Shown here one piece after another: positions 8,940-32,968 of a DNA stretch of 49,720 nucleotides. Every line of letters starts with the position of its first letter. Position 1 is the first letter of the stretch. A model generated the notes under the pieces. It did not search any database and was not told the origin of the DNA. It saw only the letters and a program-made list of their open reading frames with translations. Source of the DNA: Tannerellaceae bacterium (GTDB lineage: Bacteria; Bacteroidota; Bacteroidia; Bacteroidales; Tannerellaceae); assembly GCA_031266215.1 (NCBI GenBank), contig JAISBL010000009.1, positions 1 through 49,720 of the forward strand, written 5' to 3'. The translations under genes and the position numbers were made by a program.

Positions 8940-9776
8940 TTAATAATGTTTATTCTTTTCGATCCTTATAGTAGCGAAGGTGATCCCGCCGCGCCTGTGG
9001 CGCGGGCGTCCGGGGATGTATTTGCGGGTCCTGTACAGGCGTATTATTTTACCGGATACACGCAGGTGGCTGTCGCAGGCTGTTCCAAGACCTTCGGACA
9101 CCCGCGACATGCCTTTTAGTATATGTGAGGGGTTTTTGGACATATGCGCAAGCCCGTTGGACATATGCGCAAGAGCTTCGGACATATGCGCAAAGCCTCC
9201 GGACATATGCGCAAAACGCCTGGAAATATGTCTGAGGGCGCCTGACATGTGTGAAAGATCGCCGGTTGTGTGTACAAAGCCCTGTGTATCGAGCCTGAAG
9301 TTCATAACACGGCGGGTTATCGGCGTTACTTTTATGTCGCGCAGGTCTTCCTTCGGGAATAAGTCGCCGTCCATCTCATCAATACTGCGTCTCTTATATA
9401 TAACGCCATCTTTACCGGGTGCAGCGTAATCGCCCCTGGTTACAATATTTTCGTCTTTAAGGGTATAAGTCACAGGTTTTAAAAAAAACGCCCTGAACGC
9501 GCGTGTAAGATTACAGGCCGCGCGCCCAAGGTGTTTGAGAGTATAAACAAGACCCCTGAGCACATACTCATGCGGGTTAACGGTCAGGATAATACATGTT
9601 TCGCGGAAGCCGCCCGTGGATGTTGTACTGTTTAACGCGCCGCCTTCAAAAGCGAGGCCGTCCGGCACGCGCGAAACTCTGCCGGAGACATATCCGCGTC
9701 CATAACTTTCGGATATAAAGCAGACTTCCCGGCAGCCTTTGGTTGTGGTTGGTGTATTTGAATAGCAGTTATTCAT
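8940..9776 (-). CDS. Heptad-repeat protein of unknown function (21-bp repeat locus 1)
   Basis: I start it at the ATG at 9774-9776 because a full promoter (9822-9851) lies just upstream; this gives 278 residues. Residues ~174-230 are eight heptads of the form (L/F)-x-H-(M/I/V)-S-x-x; the four central ones are nearly identical (FAHMSGG, FAHMSEA, LAHMSNG, LAHMSKN). Weaker heptads (LKHLGRA, ACNLTRA) occur at about 73-100. In the diverged units the His is changed silently (CAT to CAC) or kept, Met becomes Ile or Val, and Ser codons change silently. That pattern argues that this frame is translated. There is no signal peptide; the C-terminus is basic (RKYIPGRPRHRRG). Function is unknown. It is followed 19 nt later by the helical/Ig-like gene. 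Confidence 0.5.
   Translation of the reverse strand: MNNCYSNTPTTTKGCREVCFISESYGRGYVSGRVSRVPDGLAFEGGALNSTTSTGGFRETCIILTVNPHEYVLRGLVYTLKHLGRAACNLTRAFRAFFLKPVTYTLKDENIVTRGDYAAPGKDGVIYKRRSIDEMDGDLFPKEDLRDIKVTPITRRVMNFRLDTQGFVHTTGDLSHMSGALRHISRRFAHMSGGFAHMSEALAHMSNGLAHMSKNPSHILKGMSRVSEGLGTACDSHLRVSGKIIRLYRTRKYIPGRPRHRRGGITFATIRIEKNKHY
9087..9257 (-). repeat. 21-bp tandem repeat array, locus 1
   Basis: About eight 21-bp units in perfect register, read on the minus strand. The core of four units (9132-9215) shares TTGCGCATATGTCC; flanking units are diverged but keep the 21-nt period. There are no spacers, so it is not a CRISPR array. Confidence 0.85.
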
Positions 9777-9821
9777 ATGTTTTAGGCATTCTTTGGTTGC
9801 GGTTAGCTTTTTAACACGGGC

Positions 9822-9851
9822 CAAAGATAAAACAAATTTCATAACACGCAA
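9822..9851 (-). promoter_or_regulatory. Promoter of the heptad-repeat / helical-Ig / DUF554 / pepP run
   Basis: On the minus strand TTG (9849-9851), a 19-nt spacer and TATCTTTG (9822-9829) fit the Bacteroidetes consensus. Transcription would start near 9817, about 40 nt before the ATG at 9776. Confidence 0.6.
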
Positions 9852-9959
9852 CCGTTGATGCTTCCAATCGCAGCGCATGATTTTGATTTATTTGTAAAAA
9901 TGATTAATGATAAAAGTATGCTGAATTGGCGTTTTGCCGGAAAAATATATGCCGATATA

Positions 9960-9990
9960 TTGTGTGGGTAGAACTAATCTCATATTTTTG
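9960..9990 (+). promoter_or_regulatory. Promoter of a short plus-strand transcript
   Basis: TTG (9960-9962), 20-nt spacer and TATTTTTG (9983-9990). No annotated gene follows on this strand before a terminator at 10026-10064. Confidence 0.6.
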
Positions 9991-9994
9991 CAGC

Positions 9995-10064
9995 GAAAAA
10001 GGTAAATATTTACATGGTTAATGTCGGGATGGGGGCGCCTGTGAAGCTGCCTCCATCCCTTTTT
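9995..10064 (+). ncRNA. Candidate small RNA or micro-ORF transcript
   Basis: From the promoter at 9960-9990, a transcript of about 70 nt would end at a good intrinsic terminator: an 11-bp stem pairing 10026-10036 with 10049-10059 (GGGATGG / CCATCCC outer part), followed by TTTTT. A 20-codon ORF (10014-10076, starting MVNVGMGAPVK) overlaps the terminator, so a leader peptide cannot be excluded. On the minus strand the same hairpin lacks a T-tract, so it is not a good terminator for the neighbouring biotin-carrier gene. Confidence 0.45.
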
Positions 10065-10156
10065 ATGTTCGATTAATTGTTTGTCGATTTCCCCCTTACG
10101 GTTATCAATTTTCCTTCACCTGCCGGCCGGGCCGGCGGAGTCCCCGTGTCGCGGAT

Positions 10157-10483
10157 TTATCCGGGTATGATGGTTGCCAGGGGATGGTTCCTGCCTATCG
10201 TGTCGCCTTCTTTCACGTGTATGGCGCCCACCGTCCCGCTTAAGGGGGCGAGGATGCGGTTTTCCATCTTCATGGCTTCGAGCGTCAGCAGCAGGCGGCC
10301 TTCTTCTATGCGCTGCCCTTCACTCACGGCAATGCTGAGCACCGTACCGGGCAGCGCCGATGATACCTGCCCTTCGGGGGGCTTTGTCCACAGTGGGCGG
10401 TGGAGGTATTTGGCGGTCAGGCGGGTTTTATATTTGCGGACGGTGATGACAAAGTCCACGTAAGGGTTGTCTGATGTTTCCAT
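10157..10483 (-). CDS. Biotin carboxyl carrier protein of an acyl-CoA carboxylase/decarboxylase
   Basis: I start at the ATG at 10481-10483 (METSDNPYVDF); codons upstream in the same frame belong to the end of the carboxyltransferase gene in another frame. The 108-residue protein has a short N-terminal segment and a biotinyl/lipoyl domain from about residue 38, with the biotin attachment motif EAMKMEN (Lys72) flanked by the usual LPGTV and APLSGTV hairpins. It carries CO2 on biotin between carboxylase or decarboxylase active sites in the cytoplasm. It lies 34 nt after the mmdA-type gene. It is short: the Pro/Ala-rich linker common in other Bacteroidetes carriers is nearly absent. No OadG-like small membrane subunit sits between the two genes. 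Confidence 0.85.
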   Translation of the reverse strand: METSDNPYVDFVITVRKYKTRLTAKYLHRPLWTKPPEGQVSSALPGTVLSIAVSEGQRIEEGRLLLTLEAMKMENRILAPLSGTVGAIHVKEGDTIGRNHPLATIIPG

Positions 10484-10517
10484 GTCTTTTTGTTTTGTTA
10501 CCTGTTGCGAGTCTGAG

Positions 10518-12065
10518 TCAGAAGGGTGGAAGCCCGTGTTTTTTGGCCGGACGGAACTCTTCTTTGCCGGCCGACAACCTGAGGGCGTGCAGCAGCATGG
10601 AGCGCGTTTCCCTCGGCTCGATAACCGAGTCGATAAAGCCTTTGGAGGCGGCGACGAAGGGATTGGCAAATTTTTCGATGTACTCCTTCACCTTCTCCTG
10701 CCGCATGGCGTCGGGGTCGGCGGCTTCCATGATTTCTTTACGGAAGATGATGCCGGCGGCGCCTTCGGGGCCCATGACTGCGATTTCGGCGCCGGGCCAC
10801 GCAAACATAAAGTCGGCTCCCAGATGCCTGGAGTTCATCGCGATATATCCTCCGCCGTAAGCTTTGCGCAGGATGACGGTTATCTTGGGCACCGTGGCTT
10901 CGGAGTAGGCGTAAAGCACCTTGGCGCCGTGGCGGATGACGCCGGCATGCTCCTGATCTACGCCGGGGAGGTATCCGGGCATGTCTTCGAGCGTGATGAT
11001 GGGTATATTGAAGGAGTCGCAGAAGCGTATGAAGCGGGCGGCTTTGTCGGAGCTGTCGCAATCGAGAACGCCGGCCAGCACCATTGGCTGATTGGCGACG
11101 AAGCCGACCGTCTCGCCGTGCATCCTCCCGAAGCCTGTCACGATGTTCGCCGCCCACAGCTCGTGCACCTCCAGGAAGTCGGAGCTGTCTACCGTGGCGC
11201 GGATAACGTCCCGCACGTCATAAGGCTGCCGTGGGTCGGCGGGTACGATTGTTTCGATGTTCAACCCTGCCAGGGGTTCTGCGGGGGCGATGCTCCTGGC
11301 GCGCTCGGCGTTGTTCCAGGGTATGAAGCTGACGAGGCGTTTTATCTGTTCGAAACATTCCTGTTCGCTTCTGGCCCAGAAGTGGGCGTTGCCTGTCACT
11401 TCGGCGTGTACGCGCGCGCCTCCGAGGTCTTCCATCGAGATGTCTTCGCCCAGAACGGTTTTGATTACGTTAGGGCCGGTGATGAACATTTTCGATATGT
11501 TCTCGACCACGAAGACGAAGTCTGTCAGCGCCGGCGAATACACGGCTCCGCCTGCACAGGGGCCCAGTATGAGGGATATTTGCGGCACGACGCCAGACGC
11601 GATGGTGTTGCGGTAGAATATCTCACCGTACCCGGCCAGCGCCTGCACGCCTTCCTGTATGCGCGCTCCGCCCGAGTCGTTTATACCGATAATGGGGCAT
11701 TTCATCTTGAGGGCGTGATCCATTATCTTGGTAATCTTGCGGGCGTGCTGCAGTCCGAGCGATCCTCCGGCGACGGTGAAGTCCTGCGCATAGATGCAGA
11801 CCGGGGCTCCGAAGATGGCCCCGGTTCCGGTGACGACGCCGTCTCCGGGGAAGTCTTTCTTGTCCATACCGAAGTCGCGCCCGTCATGTTTTACAAACAT
11901 ATCGTATTCGTGGAACGAGTTGGCGTCAACAAGTGACAGGATGCGTTCGCGGGCGGTGAGCTTGCCCATTGCGGCCTGCTTCTCGATTGCGGCTTCGCCG
12001 CCGCCCATCTCGACTACGGCCTTCTTTTCCCTAAGGGCTTGTATGTCTTTGTTTAATTCCGTCAT
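10518..12065 (-). CDS. mmdA: Methylmalonyl-CoA decarboxylase alpha / propionyl-CoA carboxylase beta carboxyltransferase
   Basis: The 515-residue protein has the two crotonase-like halves of acyl-CoA carboxyltransferases: an N-terminal half with GKLTARERI, NDSGGARIQEG and GPCAGGAVYSPALTDF, and a C-terminal half with EDMPGYLPGVDQEHAGVIRHG and RKAYGGGYIAMNSRHLGAD. These bind acyl-CoA and carboxybiotin. In Bacteroidales this type (about 515 residues) acts as MmdA of the Na+-pumping methylmalonyl-CoA decarboxylase in propionate formation, or as the beta subunit of propionyl-CoA carboxylase; sequence alone does not separate these. The biotin carrier follows. Neither the membrane beta subunit nor methylmalonyl-CoA epimerase is nearby. 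It is preceded by def with an 18-nt gap. Confidence 0.9.
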   Translation of the reverse strand: MTELNKDIQALREKKAVVEMGGGEAAIEKQAAMGKLTARERILSLVDANSFHEYDMFVKHDGRDFGMDKKDFPGDGVVTGTGAIFGAPVCIYAQDFTVAGGSLGLQHARKITKIMDHALKMKCPIIGINDSGGARIQEGVQALAGYGEIFYRNTIASGVVPQISLILGPCAGGAVYSPALTDFVFVVENISKMFITGPNVIKTVLGEDISMEDLGGARVHAEVTGNAHFWARSEQECFEQIKRLVSFIPWNNAERARSIAPAEPLAGLNIETIVPADPRQPYDVRDVIRATVDSSDFLEVHELWAANIVTGFGRMHGETVGFVANQPMVLAGVLDCDSSDKAARFIRFCDSFNIPIITLEDMPGYLPGVDQEHAGVIRHGAKVLYAYSEATVPKITVILRKAYGGGYIAMNSRHLGADFMFAWPGAEIAVMGPEGAAGIIFRKEIMEAADPDAMRQEKVKEYIEKFANPFVAASKGFIDSVIEPRETRSMLLHALRLSAGKEEFRPAKKHGLPPF

Positions 12066-12083
12066 AGAGTCTGATGTGTTATG

Positions 12084-12641
12084 TTATTTTCCTGATGCTT
12101 TTGTTTTGTATGAGCAGTTGGTCTGCCCTTTGATGATGTTGGTCAGCTTCTTTTTGTTAAGCTGTCGGCGTATGGCGGAGATGCCGTCGATAAAGATGAG
12201 TCCGTCCAGGTGTTCGTATTCATGTTGTACGATACGGGCGGCGAAGCCTCCGATTCTTTCCTTGCGCTCCACCATGTTTTCGTCGGCGTACTTTATACGT
12301 ATGCTGTCAGGCCTCATGACTTTCTCGTGGATGCCGGGAAGGCTTAGGCAGCCTTCTTCGGTCGCTGTTTCGCGGTCGCTGTACTCTTCTATAACGGGAT
12401 TGATCATGACACGTTTGAAGCCTTTACATTCGGGATATTCCCTGGACATGGGGTCGCCGTCGAGCACCAGCAGCCGTATTGACAGTCCTATCTGCGGGGC
12501 TGCAAGTCCTATGCCTTCGGCATGGTACATGGTCTCAAACATATCAGCGATCAGCTTCTCAAGGCCGGGATAATTCGCCGGGACGTCTTTGGCTTCCTGC
12601 CTTAATACGGGATGTCCGTATAGATAAACCGGTAAAATCAT
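12084..12641 (-). CDS. def: Peptide deformylase
   Basis: The 185-residue protein shows all three deformylase motifs: [10 protein letters not shown] (residues ~45-54), EEGCLSLPG with the metal-binding Cys, and QHEYEHLDG (HExxH with two metal-binding His and catalytic Glu). The enzyme removes the formyl group from nascent N-termini. It begins 3 nt after the ruvX stop, so translation is likely coupled, and it precedes mmdA. Confidence 0.95.
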
Positions 12642-12644
12642 AAT

Positions 12645-13070
12645 TTATGCGTGTTTCGTTTTTTTGCTTTCCATATAGGATTGTAGTATAATGACGGCGC
12701 TGGTGAGGTCTGCCAGCGCTTTGTCCTGCCGTTTCTTTCTTTTGAGTCCTCCTTCCAGCATTGCTCTATGGGCCATAATGGAGGTGAAACGTTCGTCATG
12801 GTAGTGTACTGGAATGTCAGGCAGTGATTGTTTAAACCGGGCGACGAAGATTTCAACATGCTTCATGTTTTCCGATGCCTCATTGTTCATTTGTTTTGGA
12901 AGGCCTACAACGAGAATGTCTACCGGTTCGCGCGCGGCGTAGTCGCGTATATAGTCGACCAGTTCGTTGCCCGGGACCGTAGCCAGTCCGCCCGCAATGA
13001 TTTGCAGGGGGTCTGTGACTGCTATTCCGGAGCGTTTTCGTCCATAGTCTATTGCCATGATCCTTCCCAT
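12645..13070 (-). CDS. ruvX: Holliday junction resolvase-like / pre-16S rRNA nuclease YqgF (RuvX)
   Basis: The start is placed at the ATG at 13068-13070 (MGRIMAIDYG, 141 residues). A longer frame would begin at a TTG inside the -7 box and so cannot be transcribed in full. The RNase H-like fold is marked by MAIDYGRKRSGIAV (first catalytic Asp), VGLPKQMN, VHYHDERFTS (Glu) and a late QDKALADLTSAVIIL (Asp). Known members process the 5' end of 16S rRNA precursor. It is the first gene of ruvX-def-mmdA-biotin carrier. The -7 box is only 6 nt from the ATG, so the mRNA appears leaderless. Confidence 0.9.
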   Translation of the reverse strand: MGRIMAIDYGRKRSGIAVTDPLQIIAGGLATVPGNELVDYIRDYAAREPVDILVVGLPKQMNNEASENMKHVEIFVARFKQSLPDIPVHYHDERFTSIMAHRAMLEGGLKRKKRQDKALADLTSAVIILQSYMESKKTKHA

Positions 13071-13076
13071 CGGGTG

Positions 13077-13084
13077 CAAATATA
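13077..13084 (-). promoter_or_regulatory. -7 box giving a leaderless ruvX mRNA
   Basis: On the minus strand TATATTTG is followed by CACCCG and directly by ATG. With the usual distance from TTTG to the start site, transcription begins at or within a few bases of the start codon. Confidence 0.6.
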
Positions 13085-13139
13085 ATACAAAAAGAGTAAG
13101 GCTTTACACAGAAAGACGGAGAGTGTGCAGCCTGTAGGG

Positions 13140-14540
13140 TTAATAAGCATTCCTTTCTCCCTTGAACATATTGAAGATTGTGACGATAATGATTTTAAGG
13201 TCAAGGAAAAACGACCAGTTCTCGATGTACCATACGTCTCTTTTCACACGTCCCGCCATTTGTTCCAGGGTTTTTGTTTCTCCCCTGTAGCCGGTAACCT
13301 GAGCCCATCCCGTCACGCCGGGCTTCACAAGGTGCCTGACCATGTATTTGTCTATCAGGGCTGAATATTCTTCAGTGTGTTTCAGCATGTGCGGGCGGGG
13401 GCCTACAACGGACATGTCTCCGTAAAGCACGTTAAGGAATTGGGGGAACTCGTCCAGATTAGTTTTCCTGAGAAAATCGCCCAAAGTAGTTTTGCGCGGG
13501 TCGTCCTTCACTGCCTGGGTTATATCGGCTTCGGAATTTACCTTCATTGTACGGAACTTATAGCATTCGAACTCCTGTCCGTAAAGTCCTGTCCGCTTTT
13601 GTCTGAAAAGGACAGGGCCCGGCGATCCGATTTTAATGAGTATACCTAATATAATGTAAAGGAGCGGGTAAATGGTTATCAGAACAATGATGGAAAAGAC
13701 GATGTCAAACGAGCGTTTGAGAGCTCTGTTATAAGCTGCCTGAAGTGGTTCCCTGCGGACCGAAAGCAAAGGGATGGACTCCATCACTTCCATGACCAGA
13801 CTTTTCTTTACGTTACGGTAAAACTCCGGCACGATGTAAAAACGCACCATATTCTTTTCTGCAAAGTTGAGCAGCTTAAGTATCTTTTCGTCTTGCGTAC
13901 CGGGCAACGTGCAATATATCTCATCAATGCCATGACGGGATACGTAATCGTTTACCTCGCCGGTGTTGCCCAAATAGTTGGGCAAGACTTTTTTAAGCGC
14001 CGCGTTATCATCGAAAAATCCCATCACGATGAAGCCGTAAGCCAGTTCGTTTTTCATAACCCTGTACAACTCCATCCCGTTCTTGCCGGCTCCTATGATA
14101 ATGATCCGTTTGAGATCATGACCCCTTCTGCGGTATATCTTCAAGATAATACGCACCAGCGTGCGCCACATGGGAAAGATAATCACCGACGTGATGTAAA
14201 AAATGACGATGAAGGATGTCAGCGCATTTCCTATGTTCAGGAATACAAGGCAGGAAGAGAATAAGAATATGTGAAAGGTTACGAGGAAGATGGCCCTCTG
14301 CACAATCTTGTCTATGAAGACCACCGATTCATGCAGCCGGATTGGGAAGAAGTAGAGGGCGAAGAAATAGCAAAAGTTAAATAACAGCAGTATTTCTTTC
14401 AGATAACCGGTTACGGTATCGGTATTGTATTCGCTCAGCTCATGAGATACAACAAGAAACAGGAGGTTTAATACGACCAGGTCGCCCGCTCCTATCAGCC
14501 ATTGAATTAATAAATTACCTCGCTTAGTGTTCAGTTCCAT
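13140..14540 (-). CDS. Undecaprenyl-phosphate sugar phosphotransferase (WcaJ/WbaP-like)
   Basis: I start at ATG 14538-14540 (MELNTKRGN, 466 residues) because a -7 box (TATTTTTG, 14563-14570, minus strand) lies just upstream and downstream of the longer frame's first codon. The N-terminus has four or five membrane segments and a CoA-binding-like Rossmann segment (RIIIIGAGKNGMELY). The C-terminal ~190 residues are a bacterial sugar transferase domain with KRSFDIVFS, GSPGPVLFRQKRTG, CYKFRTM, LRKTNLDEFPQFLNVL and DMSVVGPRP. It transfers a hexose-1-phosphate to undecaprenyl phosphate, the first step of capsule or exopolysaccharide units. No other polysaccharide genes adjoin it. Confidence 0.9.
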   Translation of the reverse strand: MELNTKRGNLLIQWLIGAGDLVVLNLLFLVVSHELSEYNTDTVTGYLKEILLLFNFCYFFALYFFPIRLHESVVFIDKIVQRAIFLVTFHIFLFSSCLVFLNIGNALTSFIVIFYITSVIIFPMWRTLVRIILKIYRRRGHDLKRIIIIGAGKNGMELYRVMKNELAYGFIVMGFFDDNAALKKVLPNYLGNTGEVNDYVSRHGIDEIYCTLPGTQDEKILKLLNFAEKNMVRFYIVPEFYRNVKKSLVMEVMESIPLLSVRREPLQAAYNRALKRSFDIVFSIIVLITIYPLLYIILGILIKIGSPGPVLFRQKRTGLYGQEFECYKFRTMKVNSEADITQAVKDDPRKTTLGDFLRKTNLDEFPQFLNVLYGDMSVVGPRPHMLKHTEEYSALIDKYMVRHLVKPGVTGWAQVTGYRGETKTLEQMAGRVKRDVWYIENWSFFLDLKIIIVTIFNMFKGERNAY

Positions 14541-14699
14541 ACGCTTTGCGCAAAAAATCCCACAAAAATAACAATAATTTCCAGTCGCATACACCCCCTG
14601 CTAAGGTTTTGGGTAAACTGAAATAAACGCCGGAAGGAAGCCTCCGTCGTTTTTTGCCATGTTTTTTCCTCTTCAATATCAATTCTTAATCATTAGCTG

Positions 14700-14728
14700 T
14701 TGTATAATAGATGTTTTTTGTATTTTCG
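14700..14728 (+). promoter_or_regulatory. Promoter of the tyrosine phenol-lyase-like gene
   Basis: TTG (14700-14702), 18-nt spacer and TATTTTCG (14721-14728), one mismatch from TAnnTTTG. The leader that follows is about 100 nt and contains a hairpin and a short ORF. Confidence 0.45.
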
Positions 14729-14729
14729 C

Positions 14730-14756
14730 CCCGTTTTCAGGTAAAACGGGATTTTT
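14730..14756 (+). terminator. Terminator-like hairpin in the leader (possible attenuator)
   Basis: CCCGTTTT / AAAACGGG with a 5-nt loop (CAGGT), followed by ATTTTT. It begins within a few bases of the predicted transcription start and 80 nt before the gene, so it may be a leader structure and not the end of another unit. Confidence 0.4.
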
Positions 14757-14764
14757 AAAGCTAA

Positions 14765-14815
14765 ATGAAGAAATCGATTCCCTTATACTTTACTGTATTT
14801 AAAATATTCACATAA
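14765..14815 (+). CDS. Possible leader peptide upstream of the PLP lyase
   Basis: A 16-codon ORF (MKKSIPLYFTVFKIFT) lies between the leader hairpin and the lyase gene, ending 20 nt before its ATG. A short leader ORF before an aromatic amino-acid lyase recalls tnaC, but there is no Trp codon; it has one Tyr and three Phe codons. Translation is unproven. Confidence 0.3.
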   Translation: MKKSIPLYFTVFKIFT

Positions 14816-16302: not shown

Positions 16303-16320
16303 TTCAACCCCCCCATACTA

Positions 16321-16375: not shown

Positions 16376-17074
16376 ATGATACGGTTGAGAAATATAACGA
16401 AGGAATTCCGTCACAAAGGCCGTGTGACGACGGCGCTGTCGGACGTATCCCTCCACGTTCCGGAGGGTCAGATCATGGGAGTAGTGGGCGAATCCGGCGC
16501 AGGTAAGAGCACGCTTATCCGGTGCGTCAACCTGCTCGAGCGCCCGACGAGCGGCCAGGTAGTGGTCGGCGGCGCAGATCTGACGGCCCTTCCCGCCCGG
16601 CAACTCTCGCGGGCGCGCCGTAACATAGGCATGATCTTCCAGCACTTCAACCTCCTGGCCTCGCGCACGGTATACGGCAATGTTGCCTTCCCGCTCGAAC
16701 TGGCCGGCATGGACGCAGGAAGGATTGACAGGCGCGTCTCGGAGCTGCTCCGGCTCGTCGGCCTCGAAAACAAAGCCACGGACTATCCGACAAGCCTCTC
16801 CGGAGGGCAAAAGCAACGTGTGGCGATCGCCCGCGCACTGGCCAACAATCCCGGCATACTCCTTTGCGACGAAGCCACAAGCGCCCTCGATCCCGCCACA
16901 ACGCGCAACATCCTCGCACTGCTTAAGGAAATAAACGACACGATGCATATCACCATCCTTCTGATCACACACGAGATGGACGTAGTAAAGGCCATCTGCA
17001 ACGACGTGGCCGTGCTCAGCCGGGGCCGCCTTGAGGATAAAGGCCCCGGCGGCGGCTGGTCATACTTTATATAA
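16376..17074 (+). CDS. metN: Methionine-importer ATPase MetN, without the C-terminal NIL domain
   Basis: An in-frame TTG at 16367 lies inside the promoter, so I use ATG 16376 (232 residues). The ABC ATPase core is complete: Walker [11 protein letters not shown]-loop MIFQHFNLL, signature LSGGQKQR, Walker [13 protein letters not shown] and H-loop LLITHEMD. It pairs with MetI and MetQ to import methionine at the inner membrane. Typical MetN is about 340 residues, with a C-terminal ~100-residue NIL (ACT-like) domain that binds cytoplasmic methionine and shuts the transporter off. Here the protein stops after [15 protein letters not shown], so that domain is missing. metI begins 1 nt after the stop. 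Transport should work without the usual feedback inhibition. Confidence 0.88.
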
Positions 17075-17075
17075 T

Positions 17076-17720
17076 ATGTTGGAATTATTCTTGAAAGGTA
17101 TTTGGGAAACGCTCTTCATGACGTTCGCTTCAGGCTTCTTCGGATTCGCCATCGGACTGCCGCTTGGCGTCGCGCTCTTTATCACGCGCGAAGGGCAGAC
17201 CGGCCGTAACCGCATCGTCAATGTCACGCTGTCGGCCCTTATCAACATCTTTCGCGCCATACCGTTCATTATACTTATTGTGTGGATGATACCGTTTACG
17301 CGCATGGTCGCCGGCACATCGATAGGCATGACCGCCGCCCTGGTCCCGCTCAGCGCCGGGGCCGCCCCGTTCATTGCAAGGATGGTTGAAAACAGTCTGC
17401 TCGAAGTGCCCGGCGGACTTGTCGAGGCTGCGAGGGCGATGGGGGCCACGCCGTTTCAGATCATCTGCAAAGTGTTGATACCCGAAGCCCTTCCGTCACT
17501 GGTGAACTGCGCCACCATCACGCTGATAACCCTTGTCGGCTATTCGGCAATGGGAGGGGCCGTCGGGGCGGGCGGTCTGGGGCAGATAGGCTACCAGTAC
17601 GGGTATGTGGGATACGATATGGCGACGATGAATATTGTCCTTATACTGCTGGTCCTGCTGGTCTTCGGCATACAAACGGCCGGCAATTATATCTCCGGAA
17701 AGACCGACCACAGAAACTAA
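17076..17720 (+). CDS. metI: Methionine-importer permease MetI
   Basis: I use ATG 17076 (MLELFLKGIWETL), 1 nt after the metN stop; this gives 214 residues, normal for MetI. There are about five membrane segments and the ABC permease 'EAA' loop, LVEAARAMGATPFQIICKVLIPEALPS-like, that docks on MetN. It is followed 6 nt later by a repeat ORF and then metQ. Confidence 0.92.
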   Translation: MLELFLKGIWETLFMTFASGFFGFAIGLPLGVALFITREGQTGRNRIVNVTLSALINIFRAIPFIILIVWMIPFTRMVAGTSIGMTAALVPLSAGAAPFIARMVENSLLEVPGGLVEAARAMGATPFQIICKVLIPEALPSLVNCATITLITLVGYSAMGGAVGAGGLGQIGYQYGYVGYDMATMNIVLILLVLLVFGIQTAGNYISGKTDHRN

Positions 17721-17726: not shown

Positions 17727-18107
17727 ATGCGGGTGAATGAGTCAAAATGCGGCTTCGGCCCGGTGCGTGACTGCGTGATCATGGCTTTTGCGCATATGTA
17801 CAAGAGCGTTGCGCATATGTCCGGAGCCTTTGCGCATATGTCCAAAGGCTTTGCGCATATGTCCGGAGCTTTTGCGCATATGTCCGAAGGCTTTGCGCAT
17901 ATGTCCAAGAGCTTTGCGCATATGTCCAAAGGCTTTGCGCATATGTCCAAGAGCTTTGCGCATATGTCCAAAAGGCCTTTTTGCATGTCCAAAGGGCTTG
18001 CGCGTATGTCTAAAAGGCTTTCGCATACGCCCAAAGGCATTGGACACATGTATAAAACCCAGGATTTTACGCCCCGGCTGGCGGTTAATGTGAATGTGAC
18101 GGAATAA
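17727..18107 (+). CDS. Heptad-repeat ORF within the met operon (21-bp repeat locus 2)
   Basis: A 126-residue ORF starts 6 nt after metI and ends 28 nt before metQ on the same strand. Residues 21-111 are thirteen uninterrupted heptads, mostly FAHMSKG, FAHMSKS, FAHMSGA or FAHMSEG. The last four are diverged (PFCMSKG, LARMSKR, LSHTPKG, IGHMYKT). Because the unit is 21 bp and contains few stop-like triplets, other frames on both strands are also open, so translation is not proven. The same heptad in the same frame occurs at 9087-9257, and gene-strand agreement supports this frame. No signal peptide, membrane span or known domain is seen. Confidence 0.4.
   Translation: MRVNESKCGFGPVRDCVIMAFAHMYKSVAHMSGAFAHMSKGFAHMSGAFAHMSEGFAHMSKSFAHMSKGFAHMSKSFAHMSKRPFCMSKGLARMSKRLSHTPKGIGHMYKTQDFTPRLAVNVNVTE
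17787..18059 (+). repeat. 21-bp tandem repeat array, locus 2 (13 units)
   Basis: Thirteen contiguous 21-bp units with no indel. Bases 1-15 are nearly invariant (TTTGCGCATATGTCC) in units 3-9; bases 16-21 vary among AAAGGC, GGAGCC, GAAGGC and AAGAGC. Units 10-13 are degenerate. No spacers separate the units. Confidence 0.95.
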
Positions 18108-18135: not shown

Positions 18136-18942
18136 ATGTATATGCAAAAGACATGGAAACTGACGGCGCTCCTTGCAGTCATACTCTCAGGATGCGGAGC
18201 CGGGGCCGGAGACAGGGCCGATTATATAAAGGTGGGAGTCGTTTCAGGCCCGGAATACGTGGTAGCCCGGGCGGCGCAGCGCGTGGCGAAGGAGAAATAC
18301 GGACTAACGGTGGAGCTCGTAACCTTCAACGACTACATCATGCCAAACACCGCCCTGTTTCAAAAGGATATTGATGTAAATGTATTCCAGACGCGTCCAT
18401 TCCTCGAAGAGCAGTCAGCCGCCAGAGGATACAGCTTTGCGGTAGCCGGCGTAACCTTCGTATATCCTATGGCGGCGTATTCAAAGCGGATAAAAGATAT
18501 AAGCGAGCTGGAAAAAGGCAGCCGCATAGCGATACCAAACGACGCAACCAACGAAGGCCGCGCCCTGCTGCTGCTGGAAAAGGCCGGTATCATAAAGCTT
18601 AAGCCGGGACGCGGGTATGCGCCGCGCCTGACAGACATCGCAGAGAATCCGCTTGGGTTGAATATCCTTGAGATCGAAGCCCCGCAACTGCCGCGCACAC
18701 TGGACGACCGGCAGGTGAGTCTGGCCGTCATCAACAACAGCTTCGCCGTCAAAGCAGGCCTGTACCTGAGCGACGGGGTAATAGTGGAAGATAAGGATTC
18801 GCCTTACGTAAACCTCATCGTATCGCGTGAGGACAATAAAGAGGCCGGGAAGGTAAAACGCTTCGTCAGGTCTTACCAGAGCGACGAAGTGGCCGCTGCC
18901 GCGCAAAAAGAATTTCGCGAAGGAGCTATCCGTGGATGGTGA
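18136..18942 (+). CDS. metQ: Methionine-binding lipoprotein MetQ
   Basis: The 268-residue protein has a lipoprotein signal (lipobox LSGC, Cys21) and NlpA/MetQ family blocks: KVGVVSGPEY, the 'NTALFQKDIDVNVFQTRPFLEE' region, IAIPNDATNEGRALLLLE and a late VNLIVSREDN. It captures methionine (possibly D-methionine or derivatives) at the inner membrane and hands it to MetNI. The usual 'D(A/V)N.FQH' element reads DVNVFQT here. Its stop overlaps the next gene's start by 7 nt. Confidence 0.9.
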   Translation: MYMQKTWKLTALLAVILSGCGAGAGDRADYIKVGVVSGPEYVVARAAQRVAKEKYGLTVELVTFNDYIMPNTALFQKDIDVNVFQTRPFLEEQSAARGYSFAVAGVTFVYPMAAYSKRIKDISELEKGSRIAIPNDATNEGRALLLLEKAGIIKLKPGRGYAPRLTDIAENPLGLNILEIEAPQLPRTLDDRQVSLAVINNSFAVKAGLYLSDGVIVEDKDSPYVNLIVSREDNKEAGKVKRFVRSYQSDEVAAAAQKEFREGAIRGW

Positions 18943-26461: not shown

Positions 26462-27148
26462 ATGAATAGAGACAGTAATATATATACCATATTATATGCT
26501 TCGGTAATGGTAGTGTTAGTGGCTGTTGTGCTGGCGTTTACTTCGCAATCGTTGAAGAGTTACCAGAATGAAAACGAAGAAAATGACAAACGCCAGCAGA
26601 TATTGCGTTCGATCAACGTACAAGTCCCGGCCAATGAAGCAAAAGATAAATTCAACGAGCTGATAAAAGACTCGTTCATCGTGAACGAACAGGGAGAAAA
26701 GATTGAAGGCGACGCTTTTGACGCTGATGTGGTGAAAGCTTTCGAGCAACATACCTATCCGGTATTTATCGCACAAACAGACGGGCAGACCAAATATATA
26801 ATGGCGCTGTCGGGAGCCGGACTATGGGGCCCGCTATGGGGATACATTTCGGTGAACGACGACCGGAATACTATTTATGGCGCCGACTTCAGCCACTCCG
26901 GAGAAACGCCGGGACTGGGAGCTGAAATCGTATTAACTTCATTCAGCGGACAGTTCGCCGGCAAGCATTTATTCATAAATGGAGAATTTAAGTCGGTTGA
27001 AATCGTCAAACCCGGCAAAAGTGTTGCAGGACAGGATTACGTGGACGGCATCTCAGGCGGAACCATCACAAGTCAGGGTGTAAATAAAATGATATTTGAC
27101 AGCATGCATGGGTATGTTCGTTTTTTAACCTCACAAAATCAACAATAA
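26462..27148 (+). CDS. nqrC: Na+-NQR subunit C
   Basis: The 228-residue protein has a single N-terminal membrane span (residues 10-28) and a periplasmic FMN-binding domain with DGISGGTITSQG near the C-terminus; its threonine carries covalent FMN (family consensus SGATLT, here SGGTIT). Electrons pass from NqrB to NqrC toward the quinone. It begins 19 nt after nqrB and ends 1 nt before nqrD. Confidence 0.95.
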   Translation: MNRDSNIYTILYASVMVVLVAVVLAFTSQSLKSYQNENEENDKRQQILRSINVQVPANEAKDKFNELIKDSFIVNEQGEKIEGDAFDADVVKAFEQHTYPVFIAQTDGQTKYIMALSGAGLWGPLWGYISVNDDRNTIYGADFSHSGETPGLGAEIVLTSFSGQFAGKHLFINGEFKSVEIVKPGKSVAGQDYVDGISGGTITSQGVNKMIFDSMHGYVRFLTSQNQQ

Positions 27149-27149
27149 G

Positions 27150-27776
27150 ATGGGATTATCAAATAAGAATAAGGAAATACTGATAGGGCCGTTGAGCAAG
27201 AACAATCCTGTCATTATCCAGATGTTAGGAATTTGTTCGGCGCTTGCCGTGACGTCTAAACTTGAGCCGTCTATTGTAATGGCCGTTTCGGTGACTGCCG
27301 TCGTGGCATTCGCCAATGTAATTATATCGCTTCTGAGGAATACGATACCTGCCCGCATACGAATCATCGTGCAACTGGTGGTAGTGGCGGCGCTGGTAAC
27401 TATTGTGAGCGAAGTATTAAAAGCTTTTGCATTTGACGTTAACAAACAACTTTCCGTCTTTGTGGGACTTATAATCACAAACTGTATCCTTATGGGGCGC
27501 CTGGAAGCGTTTGCGCTGGGCAATGGCCCCTGGGAGTCATTTCTCGACGGACTGGGAAACGGACTGGGATACGGAATTATACTGGTGGTTATCGGATTTT
27601 TCCGCGAATTACTGGGATCAGGCATCCTTCTGGGGTTCCAGGTAATCCCCGATGTATTTTATCAATGGGGTTACGTGAATAACGGTCTGATGATACTGCC
27701 TCCTATGGCACTCATCGTTGTCGCTGTAATTATATGGGTGCACCGTTCAGGGAACAAAAACCTTCAGGAAAATTAA
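27150..27776 (+). CDS. nqrD: Na+-NQR subunit D
   Basis: A 208-residue membrane protein with six predicted spans, beginning MGLSNKNKEILIGPLSKNNPV and carrying the Rnf/Nqr D-type segment IITNCILMGRLEAFA, whose Cys takes part in the FeS centre shared with NqrE. It starts 1 nt after nqrC. Confidence 0.95.
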   Translation: MGLSNKNKEILIGPLSKNNPVIIQMLGICSALAVTSKLEPSIVMAVSVTAVVAFANVIISLLRNTIPARIRIIVQLVVVAALVTIVSEVLKAFAFDVNKQLSVFVGLIITNCILMGRLEAFALGNGPWESFLDGLGNGLGYGIILVVIGFFRELLGSGILLGFQVIPDVFYQWGYVNNGLMILPPMALIVVAVIIWVHRSGNKNLQEN

Positions 27777-27803
27777 TTATTAATTCCACTAATAAAATAT
27801 ACA

Positions 27804-28421
27804 ATGGAAGAATTATTAAGCACATTCGTACGGGCCGTTTTTGTTGACAACATGTTATTTGCATACTATCTGGGTATGTGTTCATTCCTGGCTGTTTCCA
27901 AAAACGTAAAGACAGCGTTGGGATTAGGTATCGCTGTGACATTCATTCTCGTATGTACGCTGCCAATCAATTATATGCTTGAAAATTATGTATTGAAGGA
28001 AGGCGCGCTTAGCTGGCTGGGAACCGGATACCAGGAAGTAAACCTCAGTTTTCTGTCGCTGCTTATATTTATCGCCGTCATTGCTTCCTTTACCCAATTG
28101 GTAGAAATGGTTATAGAGCGGTTTGCTCCGGCTTTATATGCTTCTTTGGGAATCTTCCTGCCGCTTATTGCCGTAAACTGCGCCATCCTCGGCGCTTCGC
28201 TGTTTATGCAGCAGAAGGCATTTGACAATGCAGGCGTTGTCACGGTTTACGGGTTAGGCTCCGGGATAGGCTGGCTGCTTGCTATTGTCGGCATGGCCGC
28301 CATTCGCGAAAAACTGACTTATTCGAACATTCCCAAACCGTTAAAAGGCCTTGGAATTACGTTTATTATTACCGGTTTGATGGGTATGGGATTCATGTGC
28401 TTCTCCGGTCTAAAGATTTAA
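27804..28421 (+). CDS. nqrE: Na+-NQR subunit E
   Basis: A 205-residue membrane protein, homologous to NqrD in inverted topology, with MEELLSTFVRAVFVDNMLF at the start and the central 'IAVNCAILGASLFM' element holding the conserved Cys of the NqrD/E iron centre. Six predicted spans. Confidence 0.95.
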   Translation: MEELLSTFVRAVFVDNMLFAYYLGMCSFLAVSKNVKTALGLGIAVTFILVCTLPINYMLENYVLKEGALSWLGTGYQEVNLSFLSLLIFIAVIASFTQLVEMVIERFAPALYASLGIFLPLIAVNCAILGASLFMQQKAFDNAGVVTVYGLGSGIGWLLAIVGMAAIREKLTYSNIPKPLKGLGITFIITGLMGMGFMCFSGLKI

Positions 28422-28451
28422 TATTAACGCATTAACGAAATATACAGAGAG

Positions 28452-29714
28452 ATGATTATATTAATGTCAGGCGGACTTACCATTGCGACGGGGGCGGTTG
28501 TGTTTCTGTTAATCACACTTATACTGGTCGGTGCATTGTTGTATGCAAAAGCCAAACTGATCCCTTCAGGCCATGTGGAGATGGTAGTAAATAACGAGAA
28601 AAAGTTCGAGGTCCCGCTGGGAGGCACCGTACTCGGCACGTTGCAGGGCAACGGCATTTTCCTGTCTTCCGCCTGTGGCGGGAGCGGAAGTTGCGGGCAA
28701 TGCCGGTGTCAGATACCCGAAGGCGGCGGGAGTATATTGCCTACCGAGGTTGGTTTTTTCTCCCGTAAACAAATAAAGGATAACTGGCGGTTAGGCTGCC
28801 AGACAAAGGTGAAAGAGGATATCAGGATAATTGTCCCGGAGTCGGTATTCGGTGTGAAAGAGTGGGAGTGTACCGTGCTTTCGAACCATAATGTGGCCTC
28901 CTTTATCAAAGAATTTACCGTAAAACTGCCGGAGGGTGAAGTGATGAACTTCCAGCCGGGCAGTTATTCGCAGATCATTATTCCTGAATATGAAATGTCG
29001 TATAAGGATATTGATGTAGACGACCGTTTCAAAGACGAATGGGATAAGTTCGGGATGTGGGACCTTGCATGCAGGAATGAAGAAGAAACAATACGCGCCT
29101 ATTCAATGGCCAACTATCCTGCCGAAGGGAATATTATCACCCTGAACGTACGCATAGCCACTCCGCCGTTTGATCGTGCCGCGGGGGCGTGGAAAGCCGG
29201 CATAAAGCCCGGTATCGCTTCCTCGTATATCTTTAGGCTGAAACCGGGGGATAAGGTGAAAATGTCAGGCCCGTACGGAGATTTCCATATCCTTGACACC
29301 AGGCGCGAAATGCTGTACATAGGCGGAGGCGCAGGTATGGCGCCACTCCGTTCACACCTGCTGCACCTGTTCAATACATTGAAGACAACCGGCCGCACGG
29401 TGTCATACTGGTATGGCGCACGCTCGAAGAACGAAATCTTCTACGAAGAAGACTTCAGGGCTATTGAAAAGGAGTTTCCGAACTTCAGGTTCCATATCGC
29501 TCTTTCCGAACCGCGTCCGGAAGATAACTGGACGGGATATACAGGCTTTATCCATAAAGTGATTTACGACAATTACCTCAAAGATCACGAAGCGCCGGAA
29601 GATATAGAATATTACATGTGCGGCCCCGGCCCGATGTCGAACGCTGTAAAAGGCATGTTGGACAGCCTTGGCGTGCCTCCGGAAATGTTGATGTTCGACG
29701 ATTTCGGAGCATAA
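28452..29714 (+). CDS. nqrF: Na+-NQR subunit F (NADH dehydrogenase)
   Basis: The 420-residue protein has an N-terminal membrane span, a plant-type [2Fe-2S] domain (SACGGSGSCGQCRC ... LGCQTKV, four Cys), an FAD domain (RAYSMANYPAEG) and an NADH domain (GGGAGMAPLRSH, MCGPGPM). It is the electron entry point of the pump. Last gene of the operon; a long-loop terminator follows. Confidence 0.96.
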   Translation: MIILMSGGLTIATGAVVFLLITLILVGALLYAKAKLIPSGHVEMVVNNEKKFEVPLGGTVLGTLQGNGIFLSSACGGSGSCGQCRCQIPEGGGSILPTEVGFFSRKQIKDNWRLGCQTKVKEDIRIIVPESVFGVKEWECTVLSNHNVASFIKEFTVKLPEGEVMNFQPGSYSQIIIPEYEMSYKDIDVDDRFKDEWDKFGMWDLACRNEEETIRAYSMANYPAEGNIITLNVRIATPPFDRAAGAWKAGIKPGIASSYIFRLKPGDKVKMSGPYGDFHILDTRREMLYIGGGAGMAPLRSHLLHLFNTLKTTGRTVSYWYGARSKNEIFYEEDFRAIEKEFPNFRFHIALSEPRPEDNWTGYTGFIHKVIYDNYLKDHEAPEDIEYYMCGPGPMSNAVKGMLDSLGVPPEMLMFDDFGA

Positions 29715-29773
29715 GAACAATCAGGAATCATAAAAAGCAGTTAAGCACAAATTAACTAAAATATCATAAATAT

Positions 29774-29826
29774 AAGCGAGCCGTACCACAGGGCATAATA
29801 AACCCCGGAACGAGCTCGCTTTTTTT
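29774..29826 (+). terminator. Terminator of the nqr operon
   Basis: AAGCGAGC / GCTCGCTT with a 32-nt loop, followed by TTTTTT, 60 nt after the nqrF stop. Confidence 0.8.
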
Positions 29827-29866
29827 ACATTACATCCGTTTTTATAGTTATTTCAGGTTTATTTAT

Positions 29867-29874
29867 TACATTTG
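29867..29874 (+). promoter_or_regulatory. Promoter -7 box for the lipoprotein/barrel pair
   Basis: TACATTTG, 57 nt before the ATG at 29931. Confidence 0.45.
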
Positions 29875-29930
29875 CTACCGCAAAAAATCTATGTGTGACG
29901 TAATATTAACAATACCAAATTATTTTACCA

Positions 29931-30545
29931 ATGAAAATTAAGAGTTATTTATTTGTGTTTGTTTTACTTTTCATCGCCTTATCCTCATGTGTGGAGAAAG
30001 GATACGATTGGGATGATGTAAACAAGGAAGGTGCTTTTAGCCATGAAAGCGGTCTGTCTATACGGATAGGCGATTTTGACACCATTACCTTTAAGAGGCA
30101 GCTTGAAGTGCCTGTCGTGGTTGATATTGAGTATATAAAAGAGTTTGAAGGCCTTTTTTCGGACGAAATGTACAGTTATTTCGTTTACGATAACAATGGG
30201 AAGGATGAACCTCTGGGCGACATCAAATTTGAAGCCGACTTTGTCTCCAGGATAAAGAACGCCGCCGAAAAAAACTTTTCGGACTTCGAACTGTCTACAT
30301 ACATTTTGAATGAAAACGACGAAGATACAGGCATCCAAATAGACAGGCAGATCTATAAATCAGACGTGGAACAGCCGCAACTGTTTGTAGTAAATATCAA
30401 AAAAGATGATATAGTAAAACTCAAAGACGCTCATAAAATGCAGCTTGTTTTTAAATTCCAGTCCAGAATGGTAGAAGCATCGGACTACGTATTGATAGAA
30501 AACATATGGCTGAAACTGACCGGAGGCGTCTCCTTCAATATATAA
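29931..30545 (+). CDS. Lipoprotein of unknown function
   Basis: A 204-residue protein with a lipobox (LSSC, Cys20) and the sequence SCVEKGYDWDDVNKEG after it. The rest is predicted beta-rich, with no cysteines and no known motif. It ends 55 nt before the DUF5723 barrel gene and shares its strand and promoter, so it may be a surface or periplasmic partner of that barrel. Confidence 0.6.
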   Translation: MKIKSYLFVFVLLFIALSSCVEKGYDWDDVNKEGAFSHESGLSIRIGDFDTITFKRQLEVPVVVDIEYIKEFEGLFSDEMYSYFVYDNNGKDEPLGDIKFEADFVSRIKNAAEKNFSDFELSTYILNENDEDTGIQIDRQIYKSDVEQPQLFVVNIKKDDIVKLKDAHKMQLVFKFQSRMVEASDYVLIENIWLKLTGGVSFNI

Positions 30546-30600
30546 AAACCATATCCACACCATTTAAAAAACCATGTATCATCTATTAAGATATTATTCA

Positions 30601-31992
30601 ATGAAACAATTCACCATTCTTACCATATTCGTATTATTTGCAGGTACGACACTCATGGCGCAATCCGCCCGCAGCGACTATTTCATGCAAAACTCCTATA
30701 CACGCTCGTCGATGAACCCGGCTTTCATGCCTCTTCAGGGCTATGTCGGCGTTCCCGCCCTGTCGGGCCTGGCGGTTGAGAGCCGCACAAACTCCCTGTA
30801 TCTGGACAATTTCCTGTTTGACAAAAACGGCGGGAAAGTAACATTCCTGCACCCGTCGGTCAGCTCATCTGAATTTCTGGCCAATATGCCCGACATCAGC
30901 AACTTCGCGGTAAACATGAACTACCAGCCCATCTCCTTTGGTTTTTTCACCAGAAGCGGAGGATTCTGGAACTTCAGCATCGGAGTGAAGACGGTGGGTG
31001 ACTTAAACATACCGAAGCCGCTTTTTGAACTTGCCAAAAAAGGTTTTACCTCAGAAGACCATGAAGTAAGCTATCCGGTGCGCGACCTCAGGATGTCGGT
31101 AAGGCTATATTCGGAAATAACAGCCGGATATGCACGCACGTTCCTTGACAACAAACTCTCTGTCGGCGCCAGGGCCAAGCTCCTCGTCGGCGCAGCCTAC
31201 ATCGACATGAACATCGAATCCCTTGACGTCACCGCCCGTAAAGACCGGTGGACGGCACGCTCGAAAGCGTACCTTAAAGGCTCAGGCATTAAAGCGAAAT
31301 ACGACGAAAACGGCTTGTTTGAATCTGTCGAAGACGACCTGTCAGGCGTCGGAGGGTTCGGACTGGGGCTTGATCTTGGAGCAGTCTACAACGTCTTTGA
31401 CAGGGCGAAAGTATCCCTGGCGATAACCGATCTTGGATTCATCTCATGGAATAAGTCCTCTTCCATAAATTTAAAAACCCCCGAAACACTGGTCACCGTC
31501 TACCCCGGAGGAGAATCTGCAATGATAGAAGAAGACTTTGATTTTAAAGAAAGCTTCGACTCATCGATAGACGATATTAAAGAATCCATTAATTTCAAGG
31601 GATCATCCTCAAATGAAGGGCAGGTCACAACGTTGTATACGACGGTAAATGCAGGCTTTGAGTATGAAGTACTGCCGGGGAACCTGTCGGCCGGACTTCT
31701 GTCGTCTACCTATCTGGGAATGAAGACGGAAACGGAACTTACCCTTTCGGCCAACTATAATCCCGCACGGCTCAGATGGTTGTCGGCCGCCCTGACCTAT
31801 TCATTCATGTATGGCAGGTTCAACACCTGCGGCATAGCTCTTCATCTGGCCCCGAGCAAAGTGATACACTTCTTCGTTGCAGGCGACTACATGGTACCCA
31901 CAATAAGCGGACAATTCCTTCCCGTCAGGAGCAAAGCCGTCAACGTGCAGTTTGGCTTTGCCATACCGATAGGAAAGAAGCGTATAGATTAA
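30601..31992 (+). CDS. DUF5723-type outer-membrane beta-barrel protein
   Basis: I use ATG 30601 (MKQFTILTIFVLFAGTTLMAQ, a clean signal peptide) and not the ATG at 30574; this gives 463 residues. The mature protein is rich in alternating beta strands (for example 'FGFFTRSGGFWNFSIGVKTVGD', 'LSVGARAKLLVGAAYIDMN'-like blocks, ending 'VNVQFGFAIPIGKKRID'). Start 'YFMQNSYTRSSMNPAF' is typical of the PorP/SprF-like and DUF5723 barrels. Function unknown; terminator follows. Confidence 0.75.
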   Translation: MKQFTILTIFVLFAGTTLMAQSARSDYFMQNSYTRSSMNPAFMPLQGYVGVPALSGLAVESRTNSLYLDNFLFDKNGGKVTFLHPSVSSSEFLANMPDISNFAVNMNYQPISFGFFTRSGGFWNFSIGVKTVGDLNIPKPLFELAKKGFTSEDHEVSYPVRDLRMSVRLYSEITAGYARTFLDNKLSVGARAKLLVGAAYIDMNIESLDVTARKDRWTARSKAYLKGSGIKAKYDENGLFESVEDDLSGVGGFGLGLDLGAVYNVFDRAKVSLAITDLGFISWNKSSSINLKTPETLVTVYPGGESAMIEEDFDFKESFDSSIDDIKESINFKGSSSNEGQVTTLYTTVNAGFEYEVLPGNLSAGLLSSTYLGMKTETELTLSANYNPARLRWLSAALTYSFMYGRFNTCGIALHLAPSKVIHFFVAGDYMVPTISGQFLPVRSKAVNVQFGFAIPIGKKRID

Positions 31993-32014
31993 ATACACAC
32001 ATAATCTCCATCCG

Positions 32015-32059
32015 GAGGCTGCTCACGCAAAGTTTTGGCGTGGCAGCCTCTTTTTTTTT
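32015..32059 (+). terminator. Strong intrinsic terminator
   Basis: GAGGCTGC / GCAGCCTC outer stem with an inner CACGC / GCGTG helix, followed by nine T. Confidence 0.9.
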
Positions 32060-32077
32060 CATTTATCACATGGAGTG

Positions 32078-32725
32078 TTATCCGATGACTGCGGATATTT
32101 CGTCGCTACAGGGGCCTTCCTGAAGGCGGGGGTTGATCCAGGAGACCGACAGGATGATAGTCCTCGCCTTGTCATTGTGGCCAAAACAGAGCGTGCAACG
32201 CCGGCGTGAGGACAGTTCGGTGTGCCATGTGGTTTCGTCTTCAAACCGCCAGCGGATTTTGATGCCGTGGTAGCGCCTTGCATGAACGCCCGGTTGCGCA
32301 TGTTTGTTGCGGACGGCGTACACAGTGACCTCATAATGATGGTGTGTGACATTGATAATGGGGACGTCTGCGGGCTCGGGCAGAAGCTGTCGCAGGGGGC
32401 GGGTGCGTGACCGTAGGTTCATTGCGGCCAGCGCATCGTCGGGCACCGAGGTATTGGTTACAAGGTAGTCTATAAAGGCCGACAGGAAGCGCCTAAGTTC
32501 TGCGAAAGCGGCTTTTTTGACCGTCGCCGTAGCGTGGTTACACGTGGAGGGGTTTCCGTTCGCATGGTATGCTTCTTCGGCGGTGGCCAGTAAGGACGAC
32601 AGGATGTCAAGCCGCGCCTGGTCTATTTCCCACGTTACGGCATTAAGGCGGCATTGATCGCTGATTGATTTTGCAAGAGCTATAAACTGTTCGTCCGGCT
32701 TTTCAAGTGTTGCTGTCCTACTCAT
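32078..32725 (-). CDS. Helical plus Ig-like protein of unknown function, copy 2
   Basis: A 215-residue soluble protein, paralogous to 8219-8920. The N-terminal ~115 residues are helical; a 'DALAAMNLRSRTRPLRQLLPEP' linker follows and then a beta-rich domain with a His-rich strand (NVTHHHYEVTVYAVRNKHAQ) and an ending 'SWINPRLQEGPCSDEISAVIG'. The match to the other copy is clearest from the linker onward. Its start lies 98 nt from a 21-bp repeat array, and the other copy also adjoins one. No signal peptide; function unknown. Confidence 0.6.
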   Translation of the reverse strand: MSRTATLEKPDEQFIALAKSISDQCRLNAVTWEIDQARLDILSSLLATAEEAYHANGNPSTCNHATATVKKAAFAELRRFLSAFIDYLVTNTSVPDDALAAMNLRSRTRPLRQLLPEPADVPIINVTHHHYEVTVYAVRNKHAQPGVHARRYHGIKIRWRFEDETTWHTELSSRRRCTLCFGHNDKARTIILSVSWINPRLQEGPCSDEISAVIG

Positions 32726-32823
32726 AATGTTTTTGTAATTAAGTGATTAAAGAAACATGTTACAATGTAAAAGAACGGAGTAAAGTTAAGCAAATTCTTC
32801 AAAAACTACATCCTGTATACAAA

Positions 32824-32968
32824 ATTCTTGCGCAAGTTTCGTGGATTCTTGCGCAAGTTTCGTGGATTCTTGCGCAAGTTTCATGGATTCTTGCGCAAGT
32901 TTCATGGATTCTTGCGCAAGTTTCATAGATTCTTGCGCAGGTTTCGTGGATTCTTGCGCAAGAATTTG
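32824..32968 (+). repeat. 21-bp tandem repeat array, locus 3, with a 10-bp palindrome in every unit
   Basis: Seven units at a 21-bp period. Each holds CTTGCGCAAG, a perfect palindrome (CTTGCGCAGG in unit 6), followed by TTTC(G/A)TGG and ATT. Unit 5 has a TAG in the plus frame and unit 7 breaks off after the palindrome. In the phase used at loci 1 and 2 it encodes LAQVSWI. The minus strand is also open (CARIHET). Confidence 0.92.

Follow-up and report, generated by a model that had tools for sequence, protein, structure and literature searches.

Tandem arrays of 21-bp units upstream of members of a multi-copy gene family in Bacteroidia

The window, that is, the whole stretch of 49,720 nucleotides analysed here, is the complete contig C65 of a 2.7-Mb draft genome that is 86.9% complete. 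A previous sequence-only reading had claimed three separate 21-bp arrays in it, and these proved to be real: Tandem Repeats Finder (TRF) called period 21 at exactly three places, 9137-9230, 17787-18037 and 32824-32962. At the first of these, degenerate units extend the clear core (9137-9230) out to 9087-9257. The arrays and their surroundings are listed here.

8219..8920, minus strand: family gene 1 (233 aa), a member of a multi-copy family; its modelled C-terminal half has a predicted fibronectin-III fold
8921..9086, minus strand: leader sequence from array 1 to gene 1
9087..9257, minus strand: locus 1, a 21-bp array of unit A, 166 bp upstream of the family gene at 8219-8920
8940..9878, minus strand: 312-aa ORF spanning locus 1, considered not to be a gene
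17031..17720, plus strand: metI-like permease gene, upstream of locus 2
17727..18107, plus strand: 126-aa ORF spanning locus 2, considered not to be a gene
17787..18059, plus strand: locus 2, an orphan array of unit A in the metI/metQ gap, without an adjoining family gene
18136..18942, plus strand: metQ-like NlpA lipoprotein gene, downstream of locus 2
32078..32725, minus strand: family gene 2 (215 aa), a distant paralog of gene 1
32726..32823, minus strand: leader from array 3 to gene 2, with a Bacteroidetes-like promoter suggested by eye only
32799..33080, minus strand: 93-aa ORF spanning locus 3, considered not to be a gene
32824..32968, minus strand, the strand of the gene: locus 3, an array of unit B, 98 bp upstream of 32078-32725

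The window also contains, at 45662-45735 (+), a match to the Rfam small RNA BTncRNA_FopS (RF04319; 78.8 bits, E = 5e-10).

Loci 1 and 2 have a unit in common, unit A (TTTGCGCATATGTCCAAAGGC), which occurs also on contigs C96 and C127, and locus 3 consists of unit B (CTTGCGCAAGTTTCATGGATT), found also on contigs C24, C35, C112 and C118. The sequence-only reading had joined all three loci through one core, TTGCGCA, read in a common frame. The heptamer is indeed present at each, with 33 occurrences in the window against 9.6 expected, a number reached by none of 100 shuffles; the excess arises because the arrays repeat it. The sharing of one unit by loci 1 and 2 was upheld, but kinship between units A and B was not: the best match over all registers and both strands was 11/21, and shuffled pairs averaged 9.9 (P = 0.26). 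A 7-mer in common has P = 0.042 for this pair, and at least seven bases are shared by 15 of the 190 pairs among 20 unit families of the genome (4.4% in shuffles). TTGCGCA was, therefore, ruled out as a unifying core by the unit comparison, and its proposed role as a common binding core fails for the same reason and because other 21-bp arrays of the genome carry other cores. The common frame is no evidence of kinship either, since the core itself dictates it: any NTT-GCG-CAN gives (F/L/I/V)-A-(H/Q). When flanks and homologues were compared, the arrays proved unrelated, the outcome that had been named beforehand as speaking against the idea, and the flanks pointed to another shared feature, the gene family downstream. 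In a sample of 395 genomes of the class, three cores at period 21 were found in 5 genomes, with none for the reversed control and none at period 20; because the core itself was the query, this search shows the period and not kinship. In 40 relatives searched with up to 2 mismatches, the reversed-core control also matched G004 (11) and G009 (3). A contig scan found TTGCGCA arrays in at least 115 stretches from many phyla, and 2 of 115 such loci hold a family gene (L095 and L133), in both cases downstream of the array. The record of L095 (JAIRYX010000165.1), with its family gene and array, is a contig titled Planctomycetaceae bacterium Gsp477_bin66; this would mean either misbinning or a broader range of hosts.

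The genes at 8219-8920 and 32078-32725 are distant paralogs, and neither was named by any family model in scans of Pfam and NCBIfam. The 32078 branch has five near full-length copies in the genome (window, C56, C93, C38 and C45) and three short pieces, the C56 copy having an inner stop; gene 8219-8920 matches copies of this branch at weak E-values, and a single profile built from both branches recovers both. This type of search, applied to 395 sampled Bacteroidia genomes, detected the family in 20, often as multiple copies, and its paralogs cluster by genome in a tree, indicating expansions within genomes. The full members that were translated are 215-275 aa long. In 27 members each scanned against Pfam and NCBIfam there was no match to a Y1/HUH transposase or a nuclease, and the only Pfam matches were two at chance level, each in one of the 27. 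A family gene was not found in plasmids, phages or viral contigs by tblastn with one member each. The C-terminal half of the protein is predicted to adopt a fibronectin-III beta-sandwich, a fold that usually serves as a binding module. This assignment comes from a second look at the top 1000 Foldseek matches and mainly covers residues 117-233, the N-terminal half being poorly modelled; no nucleic-acid-binding fold was among the best 50 of these 1000 matches, which likewise cover mainly residues 117-233. A single-sequence structure model, with a mean pLDDT of 36.6, had been set aside.

Both family members in the window have an array upstream, locus 1 for gene 1 and locus 3 for gene 2. The same placement was seen in all five full-length copies of the 32078 branch, each with a 21-bp array of a different unit, and in the genus sample, which took 40 of 75 listed family places, mostly the best scoring: an array of period 21 or 42 lay less than 700 bp upstream in 38 of 40, and downstream in 2 of 40, where the arrays were weak and had 2 copies each. 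The two misses were L306 and L338, the latter at a contig end with just 3 bp upstream. By comparison, of 202 predicted genes of this genome outside the family, 14 had such an array upstream and 10 had one downstream. Elsewhere in the class, in other families, 17 of 28 loci had an upstream array (fewer than 3.5 copies in 3 of the 17), 11 had none, and 0/28 had one downstream; 29 loci had been examined, and L364 was left out as a repeat of this genome's contig-end copy. Fisher tests of three contrasts gave P = 2e-31 (38/39 versus other genes), 1e-17 (upstream versus downstream) and 4e-7 (the third), values that count related paralogs as independent and set family loci drawn mostly from relatives against a base rate from this genome. 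We regard the link between gene and array as highly likely to be real. Arrays upstream of gene family members are the arrangement expected of a phase-variable type of system. The median distance from array to start codon was 99.5 bp in the 44 gene-linked arrays; about eight arrays end less than 50 bp from the start codon, and the array is thus not always upstream of the promoter. A promoter pattern could be recognised in just 5 of the 46 upstream regions.

All 44 gene-linked arrays have 21 as their best single period, and 393 of 398 gaps between units are multiples of 21. The unit sequence itself mostly differs between copies. Units resemble one another about as much as shuffled units do, and how alike two units are does not depend on how alike their proteins are (903 pairs, rho 0.03); just one gene-linked pair was clearly alike in unit (L316/L320, 17/21). 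Three paralogs in G015, with 88-91% identity, have differing units, and in one of them a unit of the old type survives (17/21, against at most 15 in 40 shuffles), placed between the new array and the leader. Among 70 pairs whose genes are homologous at the DNA level there was one clear orthologous locus, in G017 and G008, at which flanks, leader and gene are 78-85% identical and the arrays have no blastn match to each other. Flank-anchored alignment of this locus left a register-specific likeness between the units (12/21, P = 0.0125), which argues for fast divergence rather than a swap for an unrelated array. Rapid turnover of the arrays in place is, therefore, probable. These comparisons show a fixed array period together with a sequence that differs between most copies and, in the loci compared, changes faster than the gene. 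As relatives usually carry their own upstream array, the repeats resemble rapidly evolving DNA associated with the gene family. Weak dyads are present in the gene-linked units (mean score 4.61 versus 3.56 in shuffles; P ≤ 0.05 in 11/44), and inverted repeats flanking gene-linked arrays were not commoner than in mismatched controls (4/29 versus 9%).

Unit A was found at three and unit B at four places that have no family gene, in addition to one place each beside such a gene, and for both units the repeats cognate to a family gene are dispersed beyond it. In G009, G011 and G017, too, gene-linked units were found at further places in the sequence sampled. The orphan arrays of A and B adjoin unrelated, mixed housekeeping genes, those of unit B often between divergent genes, and none of either unit was found in viral contigs. 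Four relatives that have metI and metQ together (G001, G003, G004 and G009) do not have the locus 2 array in the gap. The orphans were also considered as debris of lost family genes, and this was rejected because no gene remnant above noise was found at the A or B copies. Beside locus 3 lies a GH9 gene, and the region upstream of it has other arrays, of 21 and 42 bp, in G014 (L256) and G017 (L258), the GH9 homologue of G017 being less than 50% identical. TRF called a two-copy 22-bp repeat upstream of the homologue in G003 and no array in G002, G006, G009, G010, G015 or G016; for G008 only 80 bp could be searched.

Arrays of period 20-24 with at least three copies are numerous in this genome, with 30 in 338 kb (the window and 20 further stretches), compared with 14 in 306 kb from ten genus relatives and 0 in 265 kb sampled from 20 genomes outside the genus. 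A simple codon-use gene caller placed 41 of 43 sampled arrays outside genes. By context, 12 arrays are in divergent, 9 in tandem and 6 in convergent gaps, which account for 26, 55 and 19% of intergenic bases, numbers too small to carry weight. The sequence-only reading had also considered a DNA element whose period equals two helical turns. That proposal holds for the gene-linked arrays, with period 21 throughout, but not for arrays in general, given that 11 of 34 arrays of period 21-23 have period 23. Outside the window, the flanks of many arrays are themselves repeated, and one class consists of a transposable element bounded by inverted ends of 14 bp (GCAGACGCATTTAA), represented by seven complete copies of 303-1672 bp with different internal 21-, 22- or 23-bp arrays.

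L289, L290, L291, L294, L296, L297 and L300, on contigs C1, C16, C23, C39, C45, C79 and C119: copies of the element

Direct target duplications of 10 bp immediately adjoin three of the seven copies, and at a fourth a single base separates duplication and element. Exact matches to the end motif number 22; allowing one mismatch raises this to 37, versus 4 for the reversed control. The nearest elements described so far are BrickBuilt and PgRS (PMC4596501). The 1.67-kb copy L296 (C45:80-1860) carries a family gene and its array. The 400-bp flanks of the window arrays contain no 14-bp inverted repeat with up to 1 mismatch, and the same test was positive in the control L168; alignment of the flanks of four A loci and five B loci revealed neither a leader nor a tail in common beyond decayed units, C35 and C118 sharing short pieces. 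A MITE origin of the window arrays was rejected on these grounds, as they have neither shared ends nor terminal inverted repeats. Dyads in 44 sampled arrays had a mean score of 5.25 versus 3.86, with P ≤ 0.05 in 13/44, or 11/44 on a stricter first score, and covariation about the dyads amounted to 30 versus 22.2 expected, two arrays exceeding all other axes. Those with compensatory changes about one dyad axis in excess of all others are the 23-bp arrays L169:588-883 and L172:5972-6206. Palindromes were rejected as a unifying feature, the stricter score giving 11/44. RNA folds are stable at loci 2 and 3 (z = -7.5 and -9.75), which is expected because repeated dyads give such folds.

One possible explanation for these arrays, proposed by the sequence-only reading, is that they encode short heptad-repeat peptides. 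A period of 21 equals seven codons, and loci 1 and 2 lie in ORFs of 312 and 126 aa. The frame preference in substitutions that this explanation calls for was not seen: changes at codon positions 1/2/3 numbered 87/64/60 in unit A, with no bias, and 6/11/32 in unit B, where one single position accounts for 22 of the 32. Codon-use scores per codon were -0.016, -0.029 and -0.28 for the array ORFs as compared with +0.07 to +0.22 for seven window genes. Stops occur within units of A at C96 and, in the core frame of unit B, at 5 of 308 codons, and units are not kept between relatives. Several frames are open across locus 2 on both strands, and in the 44 gene-linked arrays 74/132 frames are free of stops on the forward strand and 69/132 on the reverse, so that neither is a coding strand. 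The 312-aa ORF (8940..9878) has no codon bias and no match in Pfam or NCBIfam, and its genus matches cover the repeat region and not the first 129 residues. The heptad-looking ORFs exist because 21-bp arrays create them. On these sequence measures the arrays are very likely non-coding, and heptad-repeat proteins are most improbable.

Alternatively, the gene product might copy, expand or spread its own array, as in the partnership of RAYT genes with REP sequences, the orphans being its products. The orphan copies of units A and B, each unit also adjoining one family gene, and the recurrence of gene-linked units in G009, G011 and G017 are what such a partnership would leave behind, but the members belong to no transposase or nuclease family by sequence, and unit sequence is independent of protein sequence, and we consider this reading unlikely. 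The fibronectin-III match of the modelled C-terminal half lowers it slightly further, as it does the idea that each paralog is a DNA-binding regulator of its own array, with the orphans marking its regulon. The upstream position, the weak dyads and the frequent location of unit B orphans between divergent genes would suit private operators of this kind. However, proteins with 88-91% identity adjoin different units, the orphan neighbours are mixed housekeeping genes, and no DNA-binding family or fold was seen, with the N-terminal half poorly modelled, so that private operators seem very unlikely. Genes and arrays might also be mobile or hot-spot DNA that came to lie side by side with no mutual function. 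Mobile elements that contain 21-23-bp arrays abound in the genome, and the family gene on C45 is inside one; yet the association is one-sided (38 versus 2 of 40) and locked to period 21, recurs in several families of the class, and is not accompanied by an excess of flanking inverted repeats. Such hitch-hiking is, in our view, quite doubtful.

The best explanation overall, to which we assign a probability of about one half, is that the array would be a fast-changing cis element of its gene family with a fixed 21-bp period. As a cis element of the downstream gene, the array would owe its usefulness to geometry, with one repeat per two helical turns and the units facing one side of the helix, rather than to one recognition sequence. 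Renewal would come about through slippage or unequal recombination, 21 bp at a time, new unit types would overgrow old ones, and copies of the array would now and then be seeded elsewhere. Repeat number would then tune or switch the gene. That the array has such a cis-control role is a tentative suggestion; control of the gene by the array is weakly favoured over a gene that makes the array or over joint travel of the two. The orphan arrays need a separate reason if the array is a cis element. A wider proposal, about which we are rather sceptical, is that a gene family of Bacteroidia whose copies each have their own array, with the period kept and the sequence renewed, may itself, or through its product, make and seed arrays and would then constitute a new genetic system.

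The family can be recognised from sequence alone by the array of its own that stands before most copies, each built on a 21-bp period. Regulatory sites seldom keep a period while their sequence is free, and such a pattern suggests either that DNA geometry exerts the control or that some activity makes tandem arrays; the latter, if true, would be a minisatellite-making system. The pairing of gene and array provides a handle on the family and on the origin and turnover of bacterial minisatellites. Among the titles and abstract openings listed from open-access PMC text, none describes the pairing, and the claim of novelty rests on these and on Pfam, NCBIfam, PHROGs and PDB sequences.

Three known systems invite comparison. 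In Mycoplasma gallisepticum, one short unit (GAA repeats) precedes every vlhA gene. The likeness is a tandem array upstream of gene-family members, whose repeat number could, by analogy, alter expression; the unit here, in contrast, is 21 bp and mostly private to its gene. RAYT genes are chromosomal and have their own REP palindromes adjoining them and elsewhere in the genome. Here too the gene has a short repeat beside it and elsewhere in the genome, but there is no Y1/HUH match, the repeats are arrayed head to tail instead of occurring as palindromes singly or in pairs, and the unit is independent of protein kinship. Also from Bacteroidales are the BrickBuilt and PgRS/MITE464 repeats of Porphyromonas gingivalis, which, in the parts of the published account drawn on here, are dispersed, mostly intergenic and spacer-free direct-repeat arrays with periods of 23 and 41 nt (PMC4596501). 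The same parts describe predicted stem-loops, a species-limited sequence, and MITEs with a leader, a tail and terminal inverted repeats (PMC4596501). The window arrays are likewise tandem, without spacers and intergenic. As far as that account allows a comparison, they differ in having no such ends, in their period of 21 and in that two of the three lie upstream of one gene family, whereas other arrays of this genome do resemble BrickBuilt.
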